NCBI RefSeq assembly: GCF_007860105.1
Contig: NZ_SJPU01000001.1
Coordinates: 806,001-870,000, forward strand
Direction of reading: 5' to 3'
From: Allorhodopirellula heiligendammensis
GTDB lineage: Bacteria > Planctomycetota > Planctomycetia > Pirellulales > Pirellulaceae
Length of the DNA: 64,000 nucleotides
The notes below the pieces were generated by a model. The model was not told where the DNA came from. It searched no databases and saw nothing but the letters and a program-made list of their open reading frames with translations. The position numbers and the translations under genes were made by a program. The stretch's first letter is position 1, and every line of letters starts with the position of its first letter. This document shows positions 22,381-27,005 of the stretch, one piece after another.

Positions 22381-23313
22381 ATGCGATTTTTCCGTGTTTT
22401 CTACTTGCTACTCTTGCTCCCAGCTAGCCTTGCGACGGTTGGCTCGGCAAACGCTGCGGACGCCAATGTTGACAGTGCCGACGCGTCCAAAAAGATCGTG
22501 TTCCTCGCTGGACGCCCGTCACACGGTTACGGCGCTCATGAACACTATGCGGGCTGCCGACTGCTCGCCGAAGCCCTGCAGGAGGCAGAGCCCAACTACG
22601 AAATAACCGTGCTGAAGGATGGATGGCCGAAGGATGGAGAGGCATCGCTGAAGGATGCCGACTGCATCGTCGTCTACTGCGACGGTGGCGAGCGTCACCT
22701 GCTCAACGCACATGTTGAGGAATGTGACCGTCTGATGAAAGACGGGATCGGACTGGTTTGTATTCACTATGGCGTCGAGACCCCAAAAGGAAAAACCGGC
22801 GATGCCTTTGTCGATTGGATTGGCGGTTATTTCGAAACCGATTGGTCCGTTAATCCTCATTGGGAAGCTAAGTTTGAGAGTTTCCCTGAACATCCGGTTA
22901 GCCGTGGTGTGAAACCGTTCGAGATCAATGACGAGTGGTACTTTCACATGCGGTTTCGAGACAACATGGAAGGGGTTACTCCCATTTTGTCCGCTCACCC
23001 ACCGGAAGCCACAATGCGGCGACCTGACGGCCCTCACAGCGGAAATCCAGCCGTTCGTAAGGCGGTTGCTGATGGCGAGATCCAGCATATGGCATGGGCC
23101 GCAGAGCGTGATGGCGGAGGGCGTGGATTCGGGTTCACCGGCGGTCACTTCCATTGGAATTGGGCCGACGAGAACTTTCGCAAAGTCATGCTCAATGCAA
23201 TCGTGTGGACCGCTCACGGTGAAGTTCCCGAAGGTGGTGTGAGCACACCGGATCCCACCGAGGCGGAACTTGAAGCCAATCAAGACGAGCCCAAGCCGCA
23301 AAAAAAAAAGTAG
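22381..23313 (+). CDS. ThuA-like domain protein, likely first half of a frameshifted fusion
   Basis: 310 residues from the ATG at 22381, which opens a signal peptide (MRFFRVFYLLLLLPASLATV). The ThuA-like domain, a glutamine-amidotransferase fold without a clear catalytic Cys, spans about 38-280: KIVFLAGRPSHGYGAHEHYA, DGIGLVCIHYGVETPKG, FEINDEWYFHMRF, FTGGHFHWNWADENFRKVML. The tail is a charged linker ending in QKKK, encoded by ten consecutive A, with TAG directly after. The -1 frame is open straight through this point into an NPCBM-PVC dehydrogenase. The stop is therefore probably bypassed in a fraction or all of the translation events, or the A count is wrong. ThuA proteins are linked to trehalose and other sugar use. 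Confidence 0.9.
   Translation: MRFFRVFYLLLLLPASLATVGSANAADANVDSADASKKIVFLAGRPSHGYGAHEHYAGCRLLAEALQEAEPNYEITVLKDGWPKDGEASLKDADCIVVYCDGGERHLLNAHVEECDRLMKDGIGLVCIHYGVETPKGKTGDAFVDWIGGYFETDWSVNPHWEAKFESFPEHPVSRGVKPFEINDEWYFHMRFRDNMEGVTPILSAHPPEATMRRPDGPHSGNPAVRKAVADGEIQHMAWAAERDGGGRGFGFTGGHFHWNWADENFRKVMLNAIVWTAHGEVPEGGVSTPDPTEAELEANQDEPKPQKKK
23300..23313 (+). promoter_or_regulatory. Candidate -1 frameshift site (A10 run, A_AAA_AAG, then TAG)
   Basis: Positions 23300-23309 are ten A. In the zero frame the codons are CAA AAA AAA AAG TAG, so the last seven bases before the stop form A_AAA_AAG, the slippery heptamer known from E. coli dnaX. A slip of -1 joins the ThuA frame to the downstream frame at GTA (23310). 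A small hairpin (AGCGAC 23312-23317 with GTCGGCT 23321-23327, one bulge) follows almost at once, closer than usual for a stimulator. RNA polymerase slippage on the A run would have the same effect. Confidence 0.6.
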
Positions 23314-25757
23314 CGACTGAGTCGGCTGCCAAAAAAACCGGACCGCAAATCAAACGATCGGCCGCGCGATCGAACAGCCAGCCAACCAAACCGATCTTCC
23401 AGAGCGATCCGGTCACCAATCAAACCAGCGGTCACGCTGTTGAGATCGATGTTGCCCTGGGGGATGCGACGCAGCTGTACCTCGTCGTCAATGACGGAGG
23501 CAATGGGTACTCGTGTGATTGGGCGGACTGGGCGATGCCACGTTTAGTCGGTCCCCAAGGCGAAATGCGACTGACGGAACTGAAGTGGAAATCAGCGGTG
23601 GCTGGCTTTGGATCCGTGCGGGTCAATCAAAGTGCTGGGGGCACGCCACTCCGCATCGATGGCGAGGAGGTTGCCTACGGGATTGGCACCCACGCAAATT
23701 CGGTCATCGCCTACGACCTTCCTCCCGGCTTCGACCGGTTCCGAGCACGTGCTGGATTGGACAACGGCGGCACCGACCAAGGAAATTGCGGTGACGAAGC
23801 AAGTGTGCAATTTCTTGTGTACACCGCCGCACCACCGGCGTTGCCGGGGATGGCGGAGTCCGGATCGCATCAACCCGCCGATGCATTGGCAGGTTTGGAG
23901 GTCGGTCTGGGGATGACGGCGAGTTTGTTCGCTGCCGAACCACAGCTCCGCAGTCCTTCCAACATCGACATCGATCATCGCGGCAGGGTCTGGGTCTGCG
24001 AAGTTGTGAATTATCGCAGCCACAATGGTGAACGCGTGGAGGGTGATCGCATTTTGATCCTGGAGGATTCCGACGGAGACGGGCTGTGCGACCAGGAAAA
24101 AGTTTTCTACCAGGGAAACGATATTAATTCACCGCATGGGATCTGCGTCCTGGGACGCCACGTCATCGTTTCGGCCGGTGATCAGGTGCAGGTCTTTACC
24201 GACACCGACGGAGACGATCGGCCGGACGAGAAACAGGTGTTGTTCCGAGGCATTTCCGGCACCCAGCATGATCACGGCATTCATGCGTTCACCTTTGGTC
24301 CCGATGGAAAACTGTATTTCAATTTTGGCAATGAGGGGCGTCAGATTAAAGACGCCCAAGGCAATCCGATTGTCGATCAGGCCGGCAATGTCGTTGAAAA
24401 CCGGCGCCAACCTTACCAAGAGGGCATGGTGTTTCGCTGCAATCTCGATGGTAGCGATTTCGAAACGCTAGCATGGAATTTTCGTAATAATTGGATGGTC
24501 ACGGTCGACTCGTACGGAAATATTTGGCAATCAGACAACGATGACGACGGGAATCGCGGGTGTCGAATTAACTACGTGATGGAGTTCGGCAACTACGGTT
24601 ACAAGGACGAACTGACCGGTGCGGGCTGGCAATCGCCCCGGACGGGCATGAGTGACGAAATCGCCAAGCGGCATTGGCACAGTAACGATCCCGGGGTTGT
24701 GCCCAACCTGCTGAACACGGGGGCGGGATCGCCTACGGGGATCACAGTTTACGAAGGAGATCTGTTCCCGATGTTTCGTGGCGACCTGATCCACTGCGAC
24801 GCGGGTCCGAACGTTTGTCGGGCCTACCTGGTGGCGAGTGAGGGGGCGGGCTACACCGCCAAGATACGTGATATCCTGACAGGCACTCACGACAAGTGGT
24901 TCCGTCCCTCCGACGTGAAGGTGGCACCGGATGGTTCGCTTATCATTGCGGATTGGTATGACCCCGGTGTGGGCGGCCATGGCATGGGTGACGTCGATCG
25001 CGGGCGATTGTTTCGGATCACCCCGCGCCGCGGTAGTGTGCAATACACTGTCCCAAAATTTGACTTTGCATCTGCCGGTGGATCCGTCGAGGCGCTCAAG
25101 AGCCCCAATTATGCTACACGTGCTCTGGCGTGGCAGTCATTGCATGCAATGGGGCCTGACGCTGCAGCGGAATTGGAGAAACTCGCTGCTTCTGAGAACC
25201 CCATCTATCGCGCTCGCGCCTTGTGGTTGCTCGGGAAGATCGAGGGCCGCGGCTTCCAGACGGTGAGCGAGGCGATCGCGGATAAGGATCAGAACATTCG
25301 CATCGTCGGAATTCGCTTGGCACGCCAGTTGGGCATGCAGGTTGACAGGTACGCTGCGATGGTCGAGAAGGATCCATCTTCTGCGGTGCGGCGTGAGCTC
25401 GCGATTGCGTTGCGGGATAGCGAATCCCCGCAAGCGGCGACGATATGGGCGACGTTGGCTATGCAGTACGACGGTCAGGACCGCTGGTATCTCGAGGCCC
25501 TTGGTATCGGCGCTGGCAATGGGCACGCCGATGCATTTTTTGACGCCTGGCTAGCTGCCGCTGGAGACGGCTGGAATACGCCCGCTGGACGTGAGATTGT
25601 GTGGCGCAGTCGCGCTGCAAAGGCCCCCGGCTTGCTCGTCAAAATCCTGCAGGACCCCGCGACCCCTGCGGAACAACACGATCACTTCATGCGAGCGTTT
25701 GATTTCCATGAGGGAGCTGCCAAAGATGCTGCCCTCCAAGCTCTGTTGGGGCTATGA
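23310..25757 (+). CDS. NPCBM + PVC-type membrane-bound dehydrogenase, -1 frame continuation of ThuA
   Basis: 815 residues if read from the -1 shift at 23310. The first ATG in this frame is 23535, which would start inside the NPCBM beta-sandwich. The residues before it (TSGHAVEIDVALGDATQLYL and VVNDGGNGYSCDWADWA) are clearly part of that domain, and no ATG, GTG or TTG precedes them. The NPCBM domain covers about 40-180 (YGIGTHANSVIAYDLPPGFD). The PVC dehydrogenase beta-propeller runs from about 195 (AGLEVGLGMTASLFAAEP) with WVCEVVNYRSH, DGDGLCDQEKVFYQGNDIN and QSDNDDDGNRGCRINYVMEF. HEAT-like repeats fill the C-terminus (ATRALAWQSLHAMGPDAAA). No haem motif is present; it is supplied by the next gene. 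Confidence 0.88.
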   Translation, partial: VATESAAKKTGPQIKRSAARSNSQPTKPIFQSDPVTNQTSGHAVEIDVALGDATQLYLVVNDGGNGYSCDWADWAMPRLVGPQGEMRLTELKWKSAVAGFGSVRVNQSAGGTPLRIDGEEVAYGIGTHANSVIAYDLPPGFDRFRARAGLDNGGTDQGNCGDEASVQFLVYTAAPPALPGMAESGSHQPADALAGLEVGLGMTASLFAAEPQLRSPSNIDIDHRGRVWVCEVVNYRSHNGERVEGDRILILEDSDGDGLCDQEKVFYQGNDINSPHGICVLGRHVIVSAGDQVQVFTDTDGDDRPDEKQVLFRGISGTQHDHGIHAFTFGPDGKLYFNFGNEGRQIKDAQGNPIVDQAGNVVENRRQPYQEGMVFRCNLDGSDFETLAWNFRNNWMVTVDSYGNIWQSDNDDDGNRGCRINYVMEFGNYGYKDELTGAGWQSPRTGMSDEIAKRHWHSNDPGVVPNLLNTGAGSPTGITVYEGDLFPMFRGDLIHCDAGPNVCRAYLVASEGAGYTAKIRDILTGTHDKWFRPSDVKVAPDGSLIIADWYDPGVGGHGMGDVDRGRLFRITPRRGSVQYTVPKFDFASAGGSVEALKSPNYATRALAWQSLHAMGPDAAAELEKLAASENPIYRARALWLLGKIEGRGFQTVSEAIADKDQNIRIVGIRLARQLGMQVDRYAAMVEKDPSSAVRRELAIALRDSESPQAATIWATLAMQYDGQDRWYLEALGIGAGNGHADAFFDAWLAAAGDGWNTPAGREIVWRSRAAKAPGLLVKILQDPATPAEQHDHFMRAFDFHEGAAKDAALQALLGL

Positions 25758-25883: not shown

Positions 25884-27005
25884 ATGACCGTGCGATTCAC
25901 ACTGCTATTTCTCGCTGCCGCTCTGACCGGTGGATTCGTCGATGCGGACGACGCAGCACCACTTGAGCCCAAAGACAAACTCGTTGTTGAGGCGGTTCTG
26001 CGTTTGAAAAGCTTCCAGTTGGATTCCTCGCCACCGGCCAAAGCGGCGGTGCTTCGATACCTGCACGCTCGACCAGGAACGGCGCAATCATTTGATCTGA
26101 TTGAGCGTTTCAAGCCTGTGGAGATCGCTCCCGAGTTGGCGGCGTTCGGTGTCGAGCATGCCGAGCAGACCTCGGGCGTGAGGGCTGCTGAGCTATTGTT
26201 TGCGATGGATCAGCAGGGCGAGCTGGTCGAATTGACTCAAGCGGAAGATGCAGAGGAAGCGCTTGCTGCGATCAGTTTGATCGGTCGAAGTGGTGGCATG
26301 AAGGCAGCCGAATTGCTGCTATCAATCGTGACGTCGGATTCGATTGCTGCCGATCGCCGGATCGCTGCCATTGCGGCCTTGAGTGGTCACGTCAAGGGAC
26401 AGTCTCAAATGCTTGAGCTGGTGAAAACAAAAGCGCTTGCTGATGATTTAGAATTCGCGGCAGCTAATTTGCTGCTGTCGTCGGATGACGACTCGATCGC
26501 AACCGAGGCACGCAAGTATTTGACGCTTCCTGAAACCGCCGACAGCGAGCCGCTGCCTCCTCTCGCCGAGCTTGGCAGACGAAGAGGCGATGCGCGGGCG
26601 GGGGCTGGAGTGTTTCGACAGCAAGGGACCTGCAGTCAATGCCACCAAATCCACGGTGAGGGCAAAGTTGTTGGTCCAGATCTCTCTGAGATCGGTAGCA
26701 AACTCTCCCGCGAAGCGATGCTGGTGGCAATTCTTGATCCGAGCGCCGCGATCAGTCACAATTTTGAAACCTATGTGCTGCTCACCGAGGACGGCACCGC
26801 GATTACGGGGCTGCTGATCAGTCAGACAGATGCTGAGATTACTCTCCGAACCAATGAGGGAATTGATCGCACCGTAGACCGGGAAGAAGTGGAGTTGTTC
26901 GAGAAGAAATCGAAATCGATGATGCCGCAGGATCTGCAGCGATTGATGACGGCAGATCAACTCGTTGACTTGGTCGAATACCTGATGACGCTGCAAAAAA
27001 AGTAG
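25884..27005 (+). CDS. PVC-type haem-binding domain protein with HEAT-like repeats
   Basis: 373 residues. Signal peptide at about 1-21 (TVRFTLLFLAAALTGGFVDA). The middle is helical, with HEAT-like repeats at about 60-225. The C-terminus is the planctomycete haem-binding domain: GDARAGAGVFRQQGTCSQCH (haem motif CSQCH at residues 250-254), GEGKVVGPDLSEIGSKLSRE and LDPSAAISHNFETYVLLTED. In many planctomycetes this domain is fused to the C-terminus of the PVC dehydrogenase, as in the gene at 35923. Here it is a separate protein with its own signal, 126 bp after the dehydrogenase, presumably its electron acceptor. Same-strand operon inferred. Confidence 0.9.
   Translation: MTVRFTLLFLAAALTGGFVDADDAAPLEPKDKLVVEAVLRLKSFQLDSSPPAKAAVLRYLHARPGTAQSFDLIERFKPVEIAPELAAFGVEHAEQTSGVRAAELLFAMDQQGELVELTQAEDAEEALAAISLIGRSGGMKAAELLLSIVTSDSIAADRRIAAIAALSGHVKGQSQMLELVKTKALADDLEFAAANLLLSSDDDSIATEARKYLTLPETADSEPLPPLAELGRRRGDARAGAGVFRQQGTCSQCHQIHGEGKVVGPDLSEIGSKLSREAMLVAILDPSAAISHNFETYVLLTEDGTAITGLLISQTDAEITLRTNEGIDRTVDREEVELFEKKSKSMMPQDLQRLMTADQLVDLVEYLMTLQKK

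Follow-up and report, generated by a model that had tools for sequence, protein, structure and literature searches.

Introduction

In Thermus thermophilus dnaX, transcriptional slippage on a run of nine A residues (A9; other runs are written likewise) yields the gamma and tau products (Baranov 2005, PMC1088944). Here we describe an A10 run in a 64,000-nucleotide (nt) stretch of DNA from Allorhodopirellula heiligendammensis, a member of the Pirellulaceae (contig NZ_SJPU01000001.1, positions 806,001 to 870,000; hereafter the window). The run stands between a ThuA domain and an NPCBM-PVC-type dehydrogenase that is encoded in the -1 frame. As that report describes for Thermus, a run of nine or more A lies on the coding strand and one gene gives two products, which for the window are predicted. 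Unlike Thermus dnaX, the gene appears to encode an exported modular carbohydrate-oxidising enzyme, and the short form in the window would be the unslipped one.

In Citrobacter rodentium tssM1 (A11), transcriptional frameshifting is described as restoring the full-length protein, with both length variants being made (PMC4256274). This is the nearest tested case of those compared here, with poly-A ahead of a premature stop as in the window. Unlike tssM1, described there for a single gene and one Yersinia relative, the run studied here has arisen repeatedly within a family and at several junctions. The GeneTack clusters (Antonov 2013, PMC3711429) include dnaX, for which nine fs-genes have ten A's, and, like the present loci, show A-rich frame transitions whose direction is not conserved among orthologues in the transcriptional cases described. 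In the same paper this lack of conservation is a criterion for transcriptional realignment. The names ThuA and Rhodopirellula are absent from its main text, and Planctomycetes appears once, in a table row. We found no report of this locus, or of slippage in these bacteria, among the open-licence titles and abstracts listed. In Escherichia coli dnaX, a ribosomal -1 frameshift occurs at A_AAA_AAG. The window shares this heptamer, whereas its run is longer and we found no Shine-Dalgarno (SD) or stem-loop stimulator.

With respect to function, a role as 3-keto-disaccharide hydrolases working with a periplasmic dehydrogenase is described or proposed for DUF1080 (PF06439) proteins (PMC9007349). The locus resembles the pathway outlined there in combining a dehydrogenase with a 3-keto-glycoside hydrolase in the periplasm, and differs from it in that the modules are predicted to form one polypeptide, with slippery linkers in some relatives. 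In relatives of the window locus, PF06439, ThuA and the dehydrogenase occur as a fusion. ThuA acts in the use of 3-keto-trehalose.

We propose that slippage at the A10 run is probably programmed and that the run marks the boundary between two domains of a single exported modular enzyme, giving the fusion as well as ThuA alone, with a slip by RNA polymerase as the most likely cause.

Results

The window junction

The junction is made up of the following features.

22381 to 23313, plus strand: open reading frame (ORF) with the ThuA domain (PF06283), start ATG at 22381, N-terminus resembling a signal peptide by eye
23300 to 23309, plus strand: A10 run, proposed slippage site, from reading the sequence
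23304 to 23310, plus strand: A_AAA_AAG heptamer in the ThuA frame, from reading the sequence
23311 to 23313, plus strand: TAG, which ends the ThuA frame when no slip occurs, the next codon after the one that ends the run
23318 to 23320, plus strand: TGA, closing the third (+1) frame soon after the run
23274 to 25757, plus strand: -1 frame, open across the junction, with linker, NPCBM, PVC-type dehydrogenase (TIGR02604/DUF7133/GSDH) and HEAT
from 23310, plus strand: part of the -1 frame used for coding

An earlier sequence-only reading had placed the ThuA stop directly behind ten A and a dnaX-type heptamer in the ThuA frame, and both hold: the frame ends CAA AAA AAA AAG TAG, with a single G between A10 and TAG. 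The -1 frame is open through the junction, as that reading had also stated, and its earliest ATG, GTG or TTG is the ATG at 23535, behind the start of the NPCBM domain; CTG codons precede it at 23457 and 23475. The first ORF matched ThuA with an E-value of 1.5e-21 (78.1 bits against a Pfam gathering cut-off of 33.4). The second matched the Pfam families NPCBM, DUF7133/GSDH and HEAT, as well as the PVC-type TIGR02604 (E-value 5.8e-92, 308.9 bits against an NCBIfam cut-off of 122.2). This NPCBM-PVC frame is open for 815 codons and is 79% identical to a Rhodopirellula solitaria protein. Ahead of NPCBM the PVC part has neither an export signal of its own nor a common start codon, and it would therefore be exportable only as a fusion.

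The run is the sole run of at least nine A on either strand of the window. Shuffled versions of the window gave a mean of 0.40 matches, and two were reached in 8 of 100 shuffles, so that by itself the run is only mildly unusual. The whole genome (7.18 Mb) has 19 distinct runs of at least nine A, of which four are A10, the longest length present.

Runs and reading frames among relatives

We fetched 226 loci, the window's own included, in batches of 30, 24 new, 80 and 92. The search of 241 Pirellulaceae genomes that gave the 24 new loci matched 180 of them; loci were taken from the matches listed, partial matches and some at contig edges being left out. After removal of 34 loci without an adjoining ThuA and 30 duplicates, 162 distinct ThuA-PVC loci remained. 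A run of A9 to A11 lies in the linker of 30 of them, with 15 in frame, 14 shifted -1 and one (L147) shifted +1. The remaining 132 have no run of at least nine A; 124 of these are in frame and eight resemble separate genes. The direction of the shift is not conserved, and phases 0, -1 and +1 all occur within the single genus g19. The -1 carriers include R. solitaria CA85 (L056 = L003), Roseimaritima sediminicola JC651 (L060 = L045) and strains TBK1r (L114) and SV_7m_r (L115).

Seven of the eight loci with ThuA and PVC apart have linkers of 187-1162 nt (two -1, four +1, one in the same frame). In the eighth, L082, the two parts share a frame across a 66-nt linker that holds an in-frame stop and no A run, which may be a real split or an error. 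Over all 162 loci, the frames of ThuA and PVC differed in 15 of the 30 that carry a run and in 6 of the 132 that do not (Fisher p = 8e-9). Setting aside the eight separate or unclear no-run loci leaves 154, with 15 of 30 against 0 of 124 out of frame (Fisher p = 6e-13, a value helped by this step, which removes the shifted no-run loci). Since all six of those have linkers of 187-1162 nt, shifts at short linkers are confined to runs of at least nine A. Linkers of run loci measure 57-155 nt, within the 21-210 nt of in-frame loci without a run.

A single open frame crosses the junction in 139 of the 162 loci. The sequence-only reading had proposed a slippage-made ThuA-NPCBM-PVC protein beside a ThuA-only product; the comparative data favour this proposal.

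Run length, measured as the longest A run in each linker plus 45 nt on either side, was bimodal. It ranged from 2 to 7 in 124 loci and was 9, 10 or 11 in eight, 21 and one loci, respectively; no locus had a longest run of 8. All 13 loci with A6 or A7 are in frame, and the shifted short-linker loci all have A9 or A10. Runs of at least nine A are concentrated in the linker (30 in 27 kb), compared with three in 117 kb of ThuA and one in 357 kb of the PVC body; the three in ThuA sit at its upstream junction. On a FastTree phylogeny of the 154 loci, run presence requires 15 changes, 13 of them forced by starred branches, and the shift requires 11; the -1 group taken by itself likewise requires 11, of which 10 are forced. 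An IQ-TREE phylogeny of 72 loci, the 30 run loci plus 42 neighbours that we selected, gave 16 changes for the run (13 forced) and 11 for the shift (10 forced). All 13 tree rows from Verrucomicrobiota and Kiritimatiellota lack the run. The run has been gained or lost repeatedly, stops lie behind it and its phase drifts; the linker run looks selected rather than incidental.

Stops close behind the run

Nine of the 14 loci shifted -1 have a stop in the unslipped frame within two codons of the run (8.4% in a same-locus control, p = 3e-7); in the other five it comes after 3, 11, 12, 15 and 15 codons. When each clade was represented only by its worst member, the stop lay within three codons in 6 of 10 (p = 3e-4). 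The third frame is closed within three codons in 9 of the 14 (control 12.5%, p = 8e-6). All 15 run loci that are in frame have their -1 frame closed within eight codons (same-locus control 37%, p = 3e-7). The cut-offs were picked after the values were seen. We considered lower GC content as a cause of the close stops and rejected it, as loci with and without a run have a mean GC of 0.552 and 0.554, respectively, over the linker and 50 codons.

Whichever the arrangement, slipping one way is predicted to switch the product between ThuA alone and the full-length form. The recurrence of runs with a stop close behind suggests that deliberate slipping lets one gene give two proteins, one short and one long.

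dnaX of the same family

The dnaX gene (TIGR02397) allowed a comparison within the same family. We took the 30 best-scoring loci from matches in 53 of 60 Pirellulaceae genomes (L274-L303); the dnaX locus L232 lies outside the window, at G000:C1:735494. In 27 of the 30, A9 (7 loci) or A10 (20 loci) stands at the gamma/tau junction, as has been described for Thermus (PMC1088944). The exceptions are L291, which is cut by a contig end, and L295 and L303, which have no run. All 27 runs, that of the window's genome included, are in the tau frame, and both other frames are closed within 12 codons in 23 of them, a count made without a control. Shifts therefore number 0 of 27 in dnaX and 15 of 30 in ThuA-PVC run loci (p = 8e-6). 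Because they are all in frame, the dnaX runs serve as a control against miscalled homopolymers. In a sample spanning the phylum, the 29 best-scoring dnaX loci (93 of 99 genomes matched) include five with at least A9 and three with A8. Four of the five are the four loci of the same class, which makes the dnaX run mainly a trait of the family and class.

Other junctions with long A runs

The same arrangement was found one junction upstream. A 3-keto-disaccharide hydrolase domain (PF06439) directly precedes ThuA in 69 loci; 54 are fused without a run, seven are fused with A9 or A10, and five are shifted -1 with A9 or A10. All five -1 loci have a stop one codon behind the run. The other three are shifted without a run and have linkers of 113-273 nt. 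L007, whose PF06439 domain was called by Pfam and which lies outside the 69-locus filter, is also -1 at an A10.

Ten genomes (G000, which is that of the window, G018 and eight more) contain 30 A10 runs, 19 assigned to coding sequence and 11 non-coding or unassigned. We placed 18 of the 19 between domains, these calls resting on ORF reading partly by eye, with Pfam on a subset and without a shuffled control for placement. Seven of the coding runs are in dnaX, three in ThuA-PVC loci, one at a 3-keto-hydrolase|ThuA junction and one inside an NPCBM region. The last two belong to a single gene, L271 (G018:C1:4112868), in which the NPCBM-region run is in frame and the other frames close within one codon. 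In the multidomain synthase genes L239 (G000:C1:1427910), L320 (G023:C1:4631869) and L252 (G018:C1:85706), A10 separates acyl-carrier repeats from a ketoreductase, and in L252 the two sides are shifted -1. Another synthase, L236, has A10 at an acyltransferase|AAT junction. L258 (G018:C1:1068303) and L309 (G195:C1:1342021) have an in-frame A10 between an aminotransferase class III and a thioesterase, and their other frames stop early (1-11 codons). L305 (G023:C1:2447703) is a different, second ThuA gene with a GDSL-lipase/PVC dehydrogenase ORF at +1 behind A10. A10 is scarce, at 0-7 per genome, and A11 is absent from the ten genomes, as if length were capped; A11 was seen in one ThuA-PVC relative, L139.

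The neighbouring cytochrome c gene

One further feature follows the dehydrogenase.

25884 to 27005, plus strand: separate cytochrome c ORF (TIGR02603), start resembling a signal peptide by eye

Its product is likely the electron-acceptor partner of the dehydrogenase. A CxxCH motif follows in the dehydrogenase frame in 33 of 87 loci examined, so that in some relatives the two share a frame. Where the DNA reached far enough downstream (87 loci), no run of at least nine A was found between dehydrogenase and cytochrome. Together, the dehydrogenase and the neighbouring cytochrome c would fit periplasmic oxidation of a glycoside followed by its cleavage.

Discussion

Proposed mechanism

From comparison of genomes we infer that slippage occurs, that it is transcriptional, that both proteins are made and that the enzymes act as follows. 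RNA polymerase would slip on the A10 run, so that a share of the messenger RNA (mRNA) gains one A. Ribosomes on such mRNA would read into the -1 frame and produce the ThuA-NPCBM-PVC dehydrogenase, exported by way of ThuA's single signal peptide. On mRNA made without a slip, translation would end at the adjacent TAG and give ThuA alone, also exported. Slippage could thus set the ratio of free, 3-keto-glycoside-cleaving ThuA to ThuA tethered to the dehydrogenase, in a putative oxidative cleavage of sugars in the periplasm. Several features expected of transcriptional slippage are present: the run is at least nine A long (A10), the other frame leads into a conserved coding region, and the run recurs with variable phase.

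Several observations weigh against this proposal. As many as 132 of the 162 loci manage without any run, which indicates that the family can do without dual products. The unslipped frame stops 11-15 codons away in four of the 14 -1 loci (L003, L004, L114 and L137), and the stop statistics include related loci. The +1 frame of the in-frame run loci was not enriched for stops (5 of 15 within eight codons, control 35%, p = 0.66), and frequent deletion or double insertion is therefore not supported. We had expected enrichment in that frame. Slipping on A runs is known from ribosomes too, and the 14:1 excess of -1 shifts would follow from -1 slippage of the ribosome as well as from insertion of an A. 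Lastly, the sisters L137 (A10, -1) and L139 (A11, in frame) differ in a way that a lost or miscalled A could produce.

Alternative explanations

A programmed -1 frameshift, in which ribosomes rather than RNA polymerase slip on A_AAA_AAG within A10 to give the fusion, is the alternative that survives best, and we consider it unlikely. The heptamer stands in the correct phase directly before the stop, and the shift is -1 in 14 of 15 shifted ThuA-PVC run loci and in all six shifted DUF1080-ThuA run loci (the five described above and L007). The heptamer alone requires only A6-7, yet the 13 A6-A7 linkers are unshifted, and the A9-A10 of the shifted short-linker loci goes beyond that need. Direction also varies, with L147 at +1 and 15 run loci in frame. 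Upstream of the run, an SD-like 5-mer was found in 0 of 15 shifted loci and a 4-mer in two (both AGGA). Downstream, predicted structure showed no excess over controls, with a mean z of -0.35 against -0.26 in 124 controls and -0.99 for the window (60 mononucleotide shuffles per locus). Both of these results count against ribosomal frameshifting. The sequence-only reading had left ribosomal and transcriptional slippage open. The length threshold, the drifting phase, the lack of ribosomal stimulators and the parallel with dnaX favour the transcriptional kind, and the evidence leans that way without amounting to proof. Ribosomal -1 slippage may contribute besides the polymerase slip.

Phase variation at the DNA level, with replication slippage toggling the fusion and each genome being a snapshot, seems very improbable. 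It would suit a homopolymer, an exported product and the occurrence of phases 0, -1 and +1. The phases are uneven (15:14:1), however, and dnaX uses the same run even though switching it off would be harmful. We aligned three sister groups of differing phase (L112/L114, L012/L147 and L137/L139; sister species, one genome per species), and run length is equal in two of the three. L112 and L114 both have A10 and are separated by a 2-base insertion after the run; L012 and L147 share A10 plus GTAACTGAGG and differ in upstream length.

The same two groups argue against a sequencing or assembly error, by which the true run would be A11 and ThuA-NPCBM-PVC one plain ORF. Homopolymers are prone to error, and the loss of a single A would give the direction seen in most shifts. 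Nevertheless, the dnaX runs of the same family are in frame throughout, and an error leaves the close stops and the repeated presence of the run unexplained. Thus error, which the sequence-only reading had named as the main alternative, is disfavoured to the point of being barely credible. That reading had also held that nine or eleven A would merge the frames; eleven would, as would eight, and nine would not, because the phase is -1. Its suggestion to look for the run and stop in orthologues found both recurring in relatives, with close stops, although most loci have no run.

Decaying or truly separate genes, with the PVC ORF dead or read from an unusual or internal start, are hardly to be believed: in eight related loci that lack a run ThuA and PVC do lie apart, but in the window the conserved NPCBM start is encoded in the -1 frame before any ATG, GTG or TTG, the frame is long and conserved, and the linkers of run loci fall within the range of in-frame loci.

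Implications

Genes of this kind may stand in annotations as pairs of genes or as pseudogenes, so that a class of bifunctional exported enzymes may be misread in planctomycete genomes. The family offers a natural system in which one slippery junction has been gained many times and in three phases, which makes selection for dual products directly testable, and dnaX of the same cells provides a built-in comparison. It is possible, and we put it forward tentatively, that in Pirellulaceae transcriptional slippage at A9-A10 is a general device for cutting modular proteins at domain junctions, easily gained and lost, drifting in phase, and with a ratio of short to long product that each lineage could tune. 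If this wider pattern is true, recoding at domain junctions would be a general route to several proteins from one modular gene.

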